A stretch of DNA of 49,497 nucleotides from Nitrososphaerota archaeon (GTDB lineage: Archaea; Thermoproteota; Nitrososphaeria; Nitrososphaerales; Nitrosopumilaceae), in the NCBI GenBank assembly GCA_021323705.1, contig JAJPKL010000009.1, forward strand, positions 1-49,497, written 5' to 3'. Both the position numbers and the translations under genes were made by a program. Shown here one piece after another: positions 32,518-46,440 of this stretch. Each line of letters begins with the position of its first letter. The first letter of the stretch is position 1. The notes below the pieces were generated by a model. It was not told the DNA's origin and searched no databases. It saw only the letters and a program-made list of their open reading frames with translations.

Positions 32518-32826
32518 ATGCAAGAATTATCACAAATAAATCAAGCACACAAGCTAGCAACAGCTCATCTCGTTTTAAAATGCAGGAGTGGCGCTGAAAA
32601 TGACATTATTGAACAGTTAAAAAACATTGAAGGTATAAAAGATATACAAAGAACAATTGGCGAATTTGATATTCTAGTAAAAATAGAATCTGATGACTCT
32701 GATTCATTAAAACGGCTGATCAAATGGAAAGTTATGAAAAATGACAAAATACAATCAGTCGTCACCTTAATGTGTATGAGAAAATCATTATGCACCGTTG
32801 TTGATGAACCAAATTCGACTAGCTAA
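32518..32826 (+). CDS. Stand-alone Lrp/AsnC ligand-binding (RAM) domain protein
   Basis: 102 aa with no HTH. LATAHLVLKCRSGAENDIIEQLKNIEGIKDIQRTIGEFDILVKIESDDSDSLKRLIKWKVMKNDKIQSVVTLMCM is a complete effector-binding domain of the Lrp/AsnC family. Such single-domain proteins form oligomers that bind amino acids or modulate partner regulators. It converges on the roadblock-like gene with an 8-nt overlap. Confidence 0.85.
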   Translation: MQELSQINQAHKLATAHLVLKCRSGAENDIIEQLKNIEGIKDIQRTIGEFDILVKIESDDSDSLKRLIKWKVMKNDKIQSVVTLMCMRKSLCTVVDEPNSTS

Positions 32827-33184
32827 ATCTGTGTATGATGTGAGCAATTTTTGTAGCCAGCGTTATAGGACTTATATTTTTCGTCGTAGTTACAACAACA
32901 AAATTTTGTCTGAAAGGAAAGATAAATGAGGCAAAATTACCTTCTGAAAAATTATATTGTATTGGGCCATAGAGGTCGTCTAGTTCCTCACCCAAAGATA
33001 TGTCAAAAAGGCAACGGCCTAAATTCTTTTTTATCTCATCATCTACTCTTACGGATCTGTAAATAAATTTCTCAAGCATCAATCCCTCACTGTTTGTAAT
33101 CTCAACTGACTGGATATTATTATCAGAATTAACAATTGTTTTACAAAGCTTGATAAAACTGAATGATTTTGTGGTATACTGCAA
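32819..33184 (-). CDS. Roadblock-like thaumarchaeal protein (DUF6659-type), copy 1
   Basis: 121 aa, alternating strands and helices: IQSVEITNSEGLMLEKFIYR, ISLGEELDDLYGPIQYNFSEGNFASFIFPFRQNFVVVTT. It shares the plan of the genes at 33,495 and 36,684: an opening strand pair with a GLMLE/GRVVE-type turn, a central helix, a DxxxG(P/K) strand, an REK-like turn, and a strand ending VVVTT. I relate it to the thaumarchaeal DUF6659 family from memory. Roadblock-like folds bind small GTPases or regulate kinases; the role here is unknown. Confidence 0.65.
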   Translation of the reverse strand: MQYTTKSFSFIKLCKTIVNSDNNIQSVEITNSEGLMLEKFIYRSVRVDDEIKKNLGRCLFDISLGEELDDLYGPIQYNFSEGNFASFIFPFRQNFVVVTTTKNISPITLATKIAHIIHRFS

Positions 33185-33494
33185 ACAACTTCTCTCCCTA
33201 TTTCACCTCTAAAAAGATGATCATTGATTTTAAATATGACGAGTAAAGGAAATCCGAAGTGCTATTACAAATCTATGGATCGTTTGATTGTGTCGCTGTG
33301 AATTATGCGGGGAGTAGGTCTACCTGATCATGTCAAGATAAAGTGATCACGGTAGACCATGTAATCATTTCATATCAAAATTATCTAAGGCTATGCTATA
33401 GTTTTTTGTATTCTTCATAGATATATGTAACTGCTATAGATGAAATGCATTCTATACGGTCAATGCTTTTCATAACCAAAATCTATTCCATGGT
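33185..33494. other. 310-nt gap holding one copy of the 67-bp repeat
   Basis: No gene is visible. It contains the first copy of the hairpin repeat (33,301-33,367), preceded by the word TATGGATC at 33,274-33,281, and an AT-rich stretch that should include the promoter of the gene at 33,495. Confidence 0.6.
33301..33367 (+). repeat. 67-bp hairpin repeat, copy 1
   Basis: A perfect inverted copy lies at 35,806-35,872. Internally, GGTCTACC-TGATCA (33,317-33,330) pairs with TGATCA-C-GGTAGACC (33,344-33,358) around a 13-nt loop, a 14-bp stem with one bulged base. The repeat extends beyond the hairpin on both sides (AATTATGCGGGGAGTA on one side, ATGTAATCA on the other). Confidence 0.95.
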
Positions 33495-33884
33495 GTGGCT
33501 ACAGAAGCTCTTGAACATCAGCCGTCATTGGATAGTCTGTGTAAACAAGTTTCAACTATAGACGATCACATTGAATTAGTAGCAATCTTGAATCGCAAGG
33601 GCCGTGTAGTGGAAATGATTGCTCGTGATGATGGAGTAAATAGAGATTTGACAGCGCATAAAAGGGAAATGCTATTCATGGAATTTGTACTCCAAGCATC
33701 GATGAACCAAGAATATGACGATGAATTCGGCAAGGTCAAAGGTCTGATTTTACAGCGAGAAAAAATCTCAGCATTTTCATTTCAGATCTATGATCACGTT
33801 TTGGTTGTTATAACCAAACCTTTATTCGAGCCTACATTTTTGCAACAAAGAATCAAAGAATTAATTTTCGATCAAATCAACTAA
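33495..33884 (+). CDS. Roadblock-like thaumarchaeal protein (DUF6659-type), copy 2
   Basis: 129 aa from a GTG start: IELVAILNRKGRVVEMIARDD, EMLFMEFVLQASMNQEYDDEFGKVKGLILQREKISAFSFQIYDHVLVVITKP, and a closing helix. It is the clearest member of the three-copy family in this region. It lies between the two 67-bp repeats together with the phosphoesterase gene, with which it is convergent. Confidence 0.7.
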   Translation: MATEALEHQPSLDSLCKQVSTIDDHIELVAILNRKGRVVEMIARDDGVNRDLTAHKREMLFMEFVLQASMNQEYDDEFGKVKGLILQREKISAFSFQIYDHVLVVITKPLFEPTFLQQRIKELIFDQIN

Positions 33885-34095
33885 CAATGCTAAAAAATTG
33901 TTAGTAGAACCGATGACTCTTAAAAACATAAACAAGGCTATAGCTATTAGCACAATACCATTAGCATCTCTAACCTACCAGCACCAATAAAACCAATAGT
34001 AAGACCAACACACCTGAGAATCATCAATACGGGAAAATCAGTCAATGGTAAATATGCTCTTTTTGCTGAATTTAAAAATAAAGGGGGAAGAGTTT

Positions 34096-35628
34096 TCAAG
34101 AATTTACTGTTGGACACGAACCACTAATTGGTGGGACCACTTGACCTGTAGCATTCAAACACACTTTTGGAGTGCTACCGTGGTTTCCAAAGTCAAACAT
34201 ATCCTCCAAATTGTAGGCCCTGTCATCAAATGATTTTTGGCCTAGCGTATCAGGAATACTTCCAGTGTGCCAGTTTTCCTCAATGAATTTGAGTACTGAT
34301 GTCTGGTCTGATACATGATGGGAGATGAAGTCTGATTTTGCATACGGTGATACCACCATGAGAGGCTGTCTCATTCCATAGCCACATCTGTCATCAGCAC
34401 CTCCCAAACCTGCTTTCTTGCCTTCACATATTGCAGCATCATTGAGGGGATCATTTGAGTGGTTAATGATCGGTGGCACAACATGGTCATACCAACCATC
34501 AGAGTCATCATATAGTATGAACTCGGCTGTGTTTGACCAATAGGGACTGTTCTCAAGTGTGTTAGTGACATTAGCGATGAATAACTGCTCATCGAGTGGA
34601 TCGGAGTATCCTGGATGGCCATCCTGAGCCTTGGGTGCCTTTAGGTAGGTTACCTGCGGTAGGTTACCATTTTTAACTGCTGCCCAGAAAAGGCTAAGGT
34701 CATACTGGTGATTTGCTTGACCATTGTGTCCTATCTCAGCTAGCGATGCTGGTGGTAAGTGGTGAGGATTTGCTGTAGAGTTATAGTATTGGAATGATTC
34801 GTGATGTGGACTATATGCAGTTACAAGAGCATTATCGGTCTGTGTTCTTGCAGTCTTTGTATTACATACAGCCTTGTGTCCTGCAACCCCATCCCATGGC
34901 ATGCTTGGTGCAAAACCTCCTTGGAACCAACCCCAAGTGATACCTTTATCATTTAACAGATCTCCAATGTTTTTTCCACTCATAGCCAATGTTGGAAATG
35001 AAGTGGAAGAACAGTCATCATATGTTGGATCTGTATCAGATATGTCAGCACCACCTCCTACTGCGTCCTCCGTTGCACCAAATGTCTGGCCTGAAACTAG
35101 GTTAATTGCACCTGGTGTTGAGGGTCCAAACGTAGTACTAAAGGAGTTGTCACTCATTGCAAAGTTTTGAGCAAGATTCCACAATCCAGTCACAGTATTT
35201 CCATCGTAATAACCCATTACAGAGCTCCCATCTGGGTTACAACCAGACCCTGTGCTGGTGGTAAACTGGACAAACTTGTCAGCCAATCCTCCATCAAAAG
35301 CTTCTTGTTCAGCCTTGTATTCATGATTCATATCACACGTTAATGCTGTAGGTAGAAGGAATGGATTAAACAAATTTGGATTATGTGTTAGGAGATCCGG
35401 GTGAGAGACGAAGTTATTAGATGAAGGAGTATTTGGTTTTGCAGTAAATCCTGGAGCATTGGGATAAGTACCAAAGTAGTGGTCATAAGATACGTTTTCT
35501 TGAAATATTATAACCACGTGTTTGATTGGCGTCTTTGTACTGTCATCTGCCCAAGCCCCCATTGAACCACCGAGGATCATTGATGTTATAAGAAGTCCTA
35601 CGATTGTTGTTGTTAGAATTTTCGTCAT
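34096..35628 (-). CDS. Secreted phospholipase C/acid-phosphatase-type phosphoesterase
   Basis: 510 aa with a signal peptide (about 1-27, cleaved near GAWAD). It belongs to the phosphoesterase family that includes phospholipase C and AcpA. IKHVVIIFQENVSYDHYFGTYP (about 35-56) holds the metal-binding E-N pair. FSTTFGPSTPGAINLVSG holds the conserved TPG motif and catalytic-type residues. ILYDDSDGWYDHVVPP and PLMVVSPYAK complete the core. It would release phosphate outside the cell, which fits the phosphate-uptake cluster downstream. It is flanked by inverted 67-bp repeats. Confidence 0.9.
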   Translation of the reverse strand: MTKILTTTIVGLLITSMILGGSMGAWADDSTKTPIKHVVIIFQENVSYDHYFGTYPNAPGFTAKPNTPSSNNFVSHPDLLTHNPNLFNPFLLPTALTCDMNHEYKAEQEAFDGGLADKFVQFTTSTGSGCNPDGSSVMGYYDGNTVTGLWNLAQNFAMSDNSFSTTFGPSTPGAINLVSGQTFGATEDAVGGGADISDTDPTYDDCSSTSFPTLAMSGKNIGDLLNDKGITWGWFQGGFAPSMPWDGVAGHKAVCNTKTARTQTDNALVTAYSPHHESFQYYNSTANPHHLPPASLAEIGHNGQANHQYDLSLFWAAVKNGNLPQVTYLKAPKAQDGHPGYSDPLDEQLFIANVTNTLENSPYWSNTAEFILYDDSDGWYDHVVPPIINHSNDPLNDAAICEGKKAGLGGADDRCGYGMRQPLMVVSPYAKSDFISHHVSDQTSVLKFIEENWHTGSIPDTLGQKSFDDRAYNLEDMFDFGNHGSTPKVCLNATGQVVPPISGSCPTVNS

Positions 35629-35805
35629 TAGAAACTAAATCTATCATTCATCAATATGTCAATTCTGCAAATAGATTTCATGCACCTACTTACAAAATAT
35701 CTTTGTATGAAAAATTTTTATTTCTTATGTATGTTATTTAATTTTCCTAGTAAACACAATTACCATGTTATCAATATAGAACATCTTTAGATGGAAAAAA
35801 GAATG

Positions 35806-35872
35806 TGATTACATGGTCTACCGTGATCACTTTATCTTGACATGATCAGGTAGACCTACTCCCCGCATAATT
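35806..35872 (-). repeat. 67-bp hairpin repeat, copy 2
   Basis: Exact reverse complement of 33,301-33,367, with its own hairpin at 35,815-35,856. The two copies face each other across 2,438 nt holding one roadblock-like gene and the secreted phosphoesterase. Confidence 0.95.
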
Positions 35873-36148
35873 TTATGGATCATTTTTAGTTGACTATATT
35901 GAAAAAAGATTTAATTTGTTTGAAAAGATTATCACAAAATTACCAAAAGAATCGCAAACACATTTTCAAGATAAATTTCTGCATTACACATATTGAAAGC
36001 AGTCTACCAAAAATGACTAGTTACTGCGCCCTTGCAATAATACAAGGTGATAGACCGCATACTAGGTATGATTCAATCCCATCTAAAGATTTTCTATGGC
36101 TTTTCAATATGTAATCATTGATGTTTATATTTTATGAAATCAATATAG

Positions 36149-36330: not shown

Positions 36331-36693
36331 TTGGAAGTAGCCATAACAAAGATAGCAAGGTACAGAGTTAAGAAGAAGAAACTAGCTAAGGTAAAAAAAA
36401 TCCTTGAAGAATTTGTTGAGGATATGAAAAGAAACGAGCCAAGGATTCTACATTATGAAATATTTCAGGAAAAAAATGATTCTGCTGCCTTCGTGCACAT
36501 AATTACATTCAAAGATAAAGCTACAGAAAGAAACCATGCAAAAAGCTTGCATGTACAAAAACTGAAAAAAACACTCTATCCTATTTGCAAAGAGGAACCA
36601 GAATTCACATATTTGAAAATGGTTAAATCCTTCAATGACTCAAAAAATGAGTCAGCCCAAGATATCAGAGAATCACAACAGTCTCAGCAATAA
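36331..36693 (+). CDS. Antibiotic-biosynthesis-monooxygenase (ABM) domain protein
   Basis: 120 aa; ferredoxin-like ABM fold seen in ITKIARYRVKKKKLAKVKKILEEFVEDMKRNEPRILHYEIFQEKNDSAAFVHIITFKDKATERNHAKSLHVQKLKKTLYP. Related proteins are quinol monooxygenases or heme-degrading enzymes. The conserved His-containing segment (NHAKSLHV) is present. The C-terminus is polar and Gln/Ser-rich. Start is TTG. It overlaps the convergent roadblock-like gene by 10 nt. Confidence 0.8.
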   Translation: MEVAITKIARYRVKKKKLAKVKKILEEFVEDMKRNEPRILHYEIFQEKNDSAAFVHIITFKDKATERNHAKSLHVQKLKKTLYPICKEEPEFTYLKMVKSFNDSKNESAQDIRESQQSQQ

Positions 36694-37058
36694 GTGTGAA
36701 TTATCTTGATAATTTTTTGTGCTGTCTCATCTATATCTACATTGACCTCTGTAGTCACAAGTAGTATTCTTTTGCCTAATGGAAAGCTTATCATAACAAC
36801 TTTTTCTCTTCTAGAGGCCGAATACAATACTGGACCCAAGCTATAATCAAAATCCTTTCTCAACGATGCACGTAAAATTACATCTAGGTACATCTTCCTC
36901 CTCTCTGCTTCATCTTCTGATGGCAGAATTCCATGCTTGAAGCCTCCAGCAACTAGGTTTCCCATCTGATCGATTAATCCTGCAAATATTATATCAGGCT
37001 CTCCAAGTAATCTCACACATTTTAGATCATATAAGAAGAGTTCCTGATTACGTTCCAT
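36684..37058 (-). CDS. Roadblock-like thaumarchaeal protein (DUF6659-type), copy 3
   Basis: 124 aa: IIFAGLIDQMGNLVAGGFKHG, RKMYLDVILRASLRKDFDYSLGPVLYSASRREKVVMISFPLGKRILLVTTEVNVD. It has the same strand-helix-strand order as the copies at 32,819 and 33,495, with the REK turn intact. It lies outside the 67-bp repeat pair. Three diverged paralogues within 4.3 kb suggest local expansion. Confidence 0.7.
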   Translation of the reverse strand: MERNQELFLYDLKCVRLLGEPDIIFAGLIDQMGNLVAGGFKHGILPSEDEAERRKMYLDVILRASLRKDFDYSLGPVLYSASRREKVVMISFPLGKRILLVTTEVNVDIDETAQKIIKIIHTYC

Positions 37059-38583: not shown

Positions 38584-38830
38584 GGCGATCTATGGAACCT
38601 CCTCTGTTTTTAGGTCCTGCATCATTCCTGTAATTCTTGATATGAACAATTCCATGATAACATAAATTATGTTTAATAACACAATTATGACTTTGATCTA
38701 TATAGTCTTCATAGGCATATGAAAGATAAGAAATCATGGTCATATGCTAGATATTTCACTAGCTATTATTTGCCCCTATGGATGAGGCATCTTTTCCAAG
38801 TCCTAAATGTGATAAGGAACCAAGCGGCCA

Positions 38831-42864: not shown

Positions 42865-43008
42865 TGTCTATTTCTATATCGAATATAATTAAAGCGGTTG
42901 TGACTACGTTCTATGTAGTACTATATAGATCTATATTCGAATATGAAACTTAAGAAATTATGGTCGAACCTCTGATATCTTCATCACAAATGATATCAAT
43001 TGTACTTG
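42865..43008. promoter_or_regulatory. Divergent phosphate-regulon promoter with dyads
   Basis: Between AbrB-PhoU and pstC lie two perfect palindromes, ATATAGATCTATAT (42,923-42,936) and ATATTCGAATAT (42,933-42,944), plus the related TATATCGAATATA near 42,884-42,891. The minus-strand AATTATATTC near 42,885-42,893 is a good TATA box for AbrB-PhoU. CTATATAG at 42,921-42,928 also occurs upstream of pstS (46,359-46,366) and sixA (38,698-38,705). A Pho-type operator is a reasonable inference. Confidence 0.6.
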
Positions 43009-46323: not shown

Positions 46324-46440
46324 AGCCTTCTATTCAATTTCTTTCAATTGGTTCCTTTCTATATAGTTACCATAGCTTACAATTGATTACATAAACTATT
46401 CCGGTCATACGTAAATAACTTTACTAGGTCGGTATTATCG

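Follow-up and report, generated by a model that had tools for sequence, protein, structure and literature searches.

Inverted repeats at a phosphate locus of Candidatus Nitrosotalea as probable copies of a small non-coding RNA gene

Introduction

A 49,497-nucleotide stretch of DNA (hereafter the window) from the 1.84-Mb genome of a Candidatus Nitrosotalea, an ammonia-oxidizing archaeon of acid soils, carries two identical sequences that face each other across a pair of genes, and the question raised by this locus is what such a perfect inverted pair encodes or controls. A first-pass annotation offered three readings: a REP- or MITE-like element in two copies, a phosphate-responsive regulatory element placed on both sides of the enclosed genes, or the ends of an invertible or mobilizable cassette. 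Absent from these options was an RNA transcribed away from the adjoining genes. Regulatory RNAs of ammonia-oxidizing archaea are little studied, and our survey of the open-access literature found none for Nitrosotalea. Here, we compare the repeats with their relatives across the genus and the order and ask which reading best accounts for their conservation.

Results

An exact inverted pair beside phosphate genes

The two arms, at positions 33,301-33,367 and 35,806-35,872, are 67 nt long, 100% complementary and separated by 2,438 nt, as first annotated. The conserved feature is real. The stem within each arm folds at -22.8 kcal/mol (z = -3.9), and the other strand at -20.5 kcal/mol (z = -4.1). 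A genome-wide copy search had been proposed with the annotation; BLAST against the whole genome returned only two copies of the 67-nt arm, both exact and both at the phosphate locus. Near the arms, no second inverted pair of like quality was found, the runner-up being 30 nt at 70%.

Several details were revised on closer inspection. The sequence TATGGATC had been placed just outside both arms. On the left it starts roughly 26 nt before the arm and on the right within a few nucleotides after it, and the two occurrences lie in direct, not inverted, orientation. The right-hand TATGGATC is part of the tail of the right copy and is conserved in other species. A third, diverged copy of the repeat at 35,999-36,058 had been overlooked, and the enclosed gene described as roadblock-like (33,495-33,884, plus strand) matches DUF6659 (PF20364) in Pfam. 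The other enclosed gene (34,096-35,628, minus strand) encodes a 510-aa PF04185 phosphoesterase with an N terminus that resembles a signal peptide by eye, and the gene next to the third copy (36,331-36,693, plus strand) has a Pfam-matched ABM domain (PF03992). Small DUF6659-type or related proteins cluster here, at 33,495-33,884, 36,684-37,058 and 32,819-33,184 (the last without a Pfam match), and DUF6659 seems to have expanded in these archaea.

The repeats keep their positions across the genus

Other species of Nitrosotalea carry relatives of the arm at 77-89% identity. Candidatus Nitrosotalea sp. TS has copy L, on contig NZ_RCMB01000018.1. The larger loci share a common gene order, namely rtcA, DUF6659, phosphoesterase, ABM, tmk, SixA, Ppx, CHAD, PhoU-AbrB and pst. 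Comparison of related genomes, a second check proposed at the outset, placed the orthologues at unchanged positions with or without the enclosed phosphoesterase gene; this synteny is shown by the comparison itself. Some genomes have a lone copy 5' of DUF6659, and others keep a copy where the phosphoesterase gene has been lost, with copies retained in three genomes (G001, G014 and G018) in which no phosphoesterase was detected. The 5' regions of diverged phosphoesterase genes (54-66% identity) carry a second class of the element, GGGGAGGGTCTACA...TGTAGACC.

We searched the genome with the composite pattern TAGACC-N22..26-ATCTAA-N7-CTAT, which has exactly three sites. The third, at 36,051, lies 5' of the ABM gene and is conserved in three relatives (G031, G035 and G013); we therefore recognize three predicted paralogues, L (adjoining DUF6659), R (adjoining the phosphoesterase gene) and A (adjoining ABM). 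A covariance model, R3, likewise gave three matches in this genome; of 37 Nitrosotalea genomes, 23 matched it at E <= 0.5, the weakest of which (G029) is doubtful. Among 400 genomes of the order, matches outside Nitrosotalea were confined to a single sister genus (G234, G235 and G237). In two of these genomes, G237 and G235, which were outside the training set, the hairpins fit the model, are divergent from a phosphoesterase gene and have UUCCCC tails. A search of the 30-39 kb region with Rfam 15 covariance models gave no match up to E = 1. Two candidate matches were set aside: a 20-nt match inside an ORF in G004 (C1), taken as chance, and a weak R3 match in G013 (C25, E 0.018), which has the wrong orientation relative to its gene and was not counted.

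Individual loci vary around the element. One copy in G020 (L082, G020:C22:2548-2692) has a longer loop, measuring 91 nt from arm to arm, and keeps the outer stem and a TTAGATA box; a second copy in that genome adjoins a truncated DUF6659 gene. In G026 (L044, G026:C272), the RNA copy sits beside type I restriction-modification genes, where the DUF6659 leader is kept without a DUF6659 ORF, a local replacement. In G004 (L024, G004:C9:51367-52866), a phosphoesterase homologue has two in-frame stops (TAG and TAA) in the aligned stretch, and the adjoining small RNA copy is intact. Several relatives (L051:6390-7471, L045:6729-7831 and similar), though not the window, have genes for a low-molecular-weight phosphatase/ArsC-like protein and an aquaporin (MIP) inserted between rtcA and the small RNA; by analogy, these may be an arsenate-detoxification pair.

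This distribution bears on the two readings that invoke mobile DNA. Like REP elements and MITEs, the repeat is short and palindromic and occurs in more than one copy, in inverted orientation. However, it is neither dispersed nor mobile: there are two exact copies per genome with none elsewhere, the orthologues are syntenic across species, no equal-distance duplication accompanies them, and the strand-specific G.U pattern described below sets them apart. Searches of plasmids, phages and viral contigs gave no match to the repeat. Nor was a target-site duplication found at the arms, TATGGATC lying at unequal distances. We consider a dispersed repeat of this kind highly improbable.

The arms might instead be the ends of an invertible or mobilizable cassette carrying the DUF6659 and phosphoesterase genes. 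Identical inverted arms could recombine, and the identity of L and R here, together with the near identity of the pair in G013, implies past exchange. Yet an intact pair is present in three genomes (the window, G031 and G013), and the segment that it encloses points the same way in each; the arms occur singly in other genomes, and positions are kept across species. No recombinase was found among the neighboring proteins that were Pfam-scanned, which represent part of the ORFs of the window. The chance that the arms delimit such a cassette thus appears very small. Exchange between the copies themselves is likely, given that L equals R here and that the two G013 copies share species-specific bases, and we infer gene conversion as the source of this identity in both genomes.

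The hairpin is constrained on the strand opposite to the neighboring gene

Sequence comparison reveals a constraint on the hairpin as RNA, acting on one strand, the strand opposite to the neighboring gene (hereafter the RNA strand). On the gene strand, many stems hold A.C mismatches that become G.U pairs on the opposite strand. Folding of 33 copies gave a mean of -18.1 kcal/mol for the RNA strand versus -15.3 kcal/mol for the gene strand, with the RNA strand better in 24 of the 33, and the class-2 helix is continuous over about 15 bp only on the RNA strand. Under a pairing scheme neutral to G.U versus A.C, the RNA strand was favored by 66 to 21.

These patterns were quantified in an alignment of 25 sequences (A3) with an outer helix of 8 bp. 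On the RNA strand, 198 of 199 outer-helix cells are paired, and sliding-partner controls reduce pairing to 32-43%. Double changes in the helix number 13, compared with 3.3 in shuffles, and the covariation score is 0.223 versus 0.095. Ten cells depart from Watson-Crick pairing, and every one of them is G.U when read on the RNA strand and A.C when read on the gene strand. By our count these represent about eight independent events, and a U.G pair on the RNA strand of the held-out G237/G235 hairpins brings the tally to nine of nine in one direction. Because the outer stem (7-8 bp) is nearly invariant in sequence, with drift confined to the inner stem and loop, the covariation signal comes from a small number of columns, chiefly a single pair with five types, and from some eight to nine independent events. 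One loop-proximal pair in class 1 runs contrary to the trend, in that it is the gene strand that has a G.T there. Overall, RNA structure is conserved on one strand, with compensatory changes, and the held-out hairpins agree. The predicted RNA is supported mainly by this one-way G.U pattern, which does not depend on the promoter argument below. Our first model (R1) was built on the gene strand and gave weak covariation; a bias toward class 1 hid the class-2 and A copies, which was resolved by switching strands.

A structured 5' leader of the protein mRNAs, such as a riboswitch or attenuator that begins at GCGGGGAG, roughly 24 nt downstream of a TATA-like CTAAAAA box, would place the structure on the gene strand. 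In both classes, the R-type copies do keep CTAAAAA at an unvarying distance ahead of GCGGGGAG, and in R-type copies a mutually exclusive second hairpin is also possible on the gene strand. We considered a gene-strand riboswitch for these alternative hairpins and rejected it on the A.C mismatches, which interrupt gene-strand stems in many species and go with poorer folding. Furthermore, the second hairpin is missing from L-type copies, and on the other strand CTAAAAA can be read as a UUUUUAG terminator. A leader of this kind is therefore improbable, though less so than either form of mobile DNA.

A promoter-like box at fixed spacing, a C-rich tail and predicted ends

In all 33 copies, a TATA-like TTTAGATA or close variant lies 21-26 nt before the hairpin (GGTCTAC on the RNA strand). 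The comparison shows that this spacing is fixed while the arm-to-arm distance ranges from 29 to 91 nt. Such a spacing would be expected between a TATA element and a start site, and we predict a promoter role for TTTAGATA. In these loci, TAGATA-like words are among those weakly enriched ahead of genes, around position -36.

Copy L is predicted at 33,309-33,358 on the minus strand, divergent from the DUF6659 gene. Its 5'-GGUCUACC hairpin runs from 33,358 down to 33,317 and is followed by UA and a CUCCCC tail; it is an exact copy of R, and its R3 match spans 33,303-33,392 on the minus strand. The promoter-like element of L, CTATAG-N7-TTAGATA, occupies 33,382-33,401 (minus strand), and the TTAGAT box ends 24 nt before GGTCTACC. 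Copy R is predicted at 35,815-35,887 on the plus strand, divergent from the phosphoesterase gene, with the same 5' hairpin (35,815-35,856), a CUACUCCCCGCAUAAUU tail and a U5 run at 35,883-35,887; its promoter-like element, TATAG-N7-TTTAGATG, lies at 35,775-35,793 (plus strand). The diverged copy A is predicted on the minus strand, divergent from the ABM gene, as a GCGGUCUAUC...GGUAGACUGC hairpin with an 11-bp outer stem that includes G.U pairs (z = -4.1). Its R3 match spans 35,987-36,090 on the minus strand (E 0.0018), and its promoter-like element, CATAG-N7-TTTAGATG, is at 36,080-36,098 (minus strand).

In copies of the L and R types, the hairpin is followed by a CUCCCC tail; the tail of copy A differs and lacks this motif. 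T5 runs occur within 60 nt of the hairpin in 18 of 33 copies, against 4.5 expected, mostly in R-type copies, where they fall nearly always at +24 to +27; many L-type copies are without one. Both the 5' and 3' ends are therefore predictions. Our literature search found no paper on start sites in Nitrosotalea.

The same spacing can be read as DNA. A module of operator and promoter sites for the adjoining genes, in which GGTCTACC/GGTAGACC are regulator sites at a fixed distance from an ATCTAA-N7-CTATAG promoter driving DUF6659, phosphoesterase and ABM, ranks second after the small-RNA family. It would account for a hairpin that is always 5' of a gene in the same relative orientation, for composite sites at exactly three adjacent genes, and for the fixed spacing from the 3' arm to the box. 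It would also fit the palindromes around the proposed start in R-type copies. The ATCTAA/TTTAGAT box is found without a hairpin at the G029 phosphoesterase gene (at a contig end) and near tmk2 in G004, and may therefore serve the protein gene instead. In contrast, a DNA module leaves the preference for G.U over A.C on one strand unexplained, the arm-to-arm distance takes almost any value (29-49 and 91 nt) with no helical phasing, and the element is retained where the phosphoesterase gene has been lost. On balance, we regard this module as unlikely but as deserving more weight than a leader. As for the palindromes themselves, R-type copies of both classes (e.g. L018 and L051) have one of 22-27 bp centered on the predicted start, which is absent in L-type copies and is possibly an operator.

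A box shared with the pst promoters

The repeats sit in a phosphate cluster comprising pstC, pstA, pstB, phoU, pstS, a PhoU-AbrB protein, Ppx, CHAD and the secreted-type PF04185 phosphoesterase. Between 38,831 and 47,622 the cluster is complete, with SixA-like, Ppx/GppA, CHAD, a PhoU-AbrB/MazE fusion, pstC, pstA, pstB, phoU and pstS; pst, phoU and CHAD were named from sequence and gene order, and only part of the set was Pfam-scanned. Four intergenic regions of the window contain a CTATATAG-CATAG-like box, compared with 0.11 in first-order simulations. The first separates the DUF6659 gene from copy L (33,396-33,420, plus strand); it has the form CTATAG...CATAG and resembles the pst-promoter boxes. 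The others are CTATATAG...CATAG boxes in the tmk2/SixA intergenic region (38,698-38,715, plus strand), between the PhoU-AbrB gene and pstC (42,910-42,928, minus strand), and upstream of pstS (46,359-46,375, plus strand). The box recurs at corresponding places in several relatives. Its pattern was chosen after inspection, so the enrichment is only suggestive, and we put forward CTATATAG-N-CATAG as a candidate phosphate box of this genus.

A purine-rich GGGGGAAGAG stretch lies at 34,071-34,100, right after the DUF6659 gene, with similar stretches in relatives (GAGAGGGGAA); it is partly complementary to the CUCCCC tail.

Discussion

The comparison as a whole makes it probable that one small non-coding RNA gene is present here in two identical versions, L and R, which together with the diverged paralogue A would form a new phosphate-linked small-RNA family. 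Of the three original options, the phosphate-responsive element on both sides is the nearest and survives in part: the copies do lie 5' of phosphate-cluster genes, and a motif that they carry recurs in pst promoters. What is conserved, however, behaves like an RNA whose transcription would lead away from these genes. The dispersed-repeat and mobile-cassette options did not hold up. Strand-specific use of G.U in related genomes can thus tell an RNA gene from a DNA palindrome.

In the mechanism that we propose, each RNA would be transcribed away from its adjoining protein gene, L on the minus strand from about 33,358, R on the plus strand from about 35,815 and A on the minus strand from about 36,056. 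Promoter function would fall to the TATA-like TTTAGATA box that precedes the hairpin by 21-26 nt, and the RNA would start at or just before GGUCUACC. A hairpin would follow, then a single-stranded CUCCCC tail in L and R, with a U5 run some 25 nt further on as the putative terminator in R-type copies. The RNAs may be made when phosphate is limiting and may use CUCCCC to contact, in trans, the mRNAs of phosphate or membrane genes. Transcription, exact ends and targets are all predicted here; phosphate control and trans action are proposed because the RNAs adjoin pst/pho genes and share a box with pst promoters, and because sRNA132 offers a precedent.

C-rich-motif bacterial sRNAs such as RsaE carry a single-stranded C-rich stretch. 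By analogy only, the CUCCCC/UCCC stretch could cover ribosome sites of the GGGGAG/GGAG type; unlike our family, RsaE is bacterial, and copy A has no C-rich motif. Closer in setting is sRNA132 of Haloferax volcanii, an archaeal small RNA shown experimentally to act in phosphate starvation (PMC6560208). Both are intergenic archaeal sRNAs tied to phosphate limitation and pst-type transporters. However, no sequence relation is expected, and the Nitrosotalea family has at most three linked copies per genome and is known from sequence alone; we propose that its RNAs may work like sRNA132 and are not members of its family. In Sulfolobus solfataricus, sRNA257 acts on the 3'-UTR of one phosphate transporter mRNA (PMC6560208). 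It too is an archaeal sRNA linked to a phosphate transporter mRNA; its described site of action sets it apart from the family predicted here.

Our open-access literature search yielded no previous account of an RNA family of this kind. More tentatively, and with somewhat less than even confidence, we suggest a hitherto undescribed family of linked small RNAs, at most three per genome, that undergo gene conversion and are each divergent from a phosphate-associated gene; they would control phosphorus acquisition post-transcriptionally in acidophilic ammonia-oxidizing archaea. If transcribed, the family would be compact and defined by computation, combining a promoter and a hairpin with a conserved tail; phosphate would be its likely trigger. 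If this proposal is true, the family would be the first system of phosphate-linked regulatory sRNAs that we know of in this phylum.
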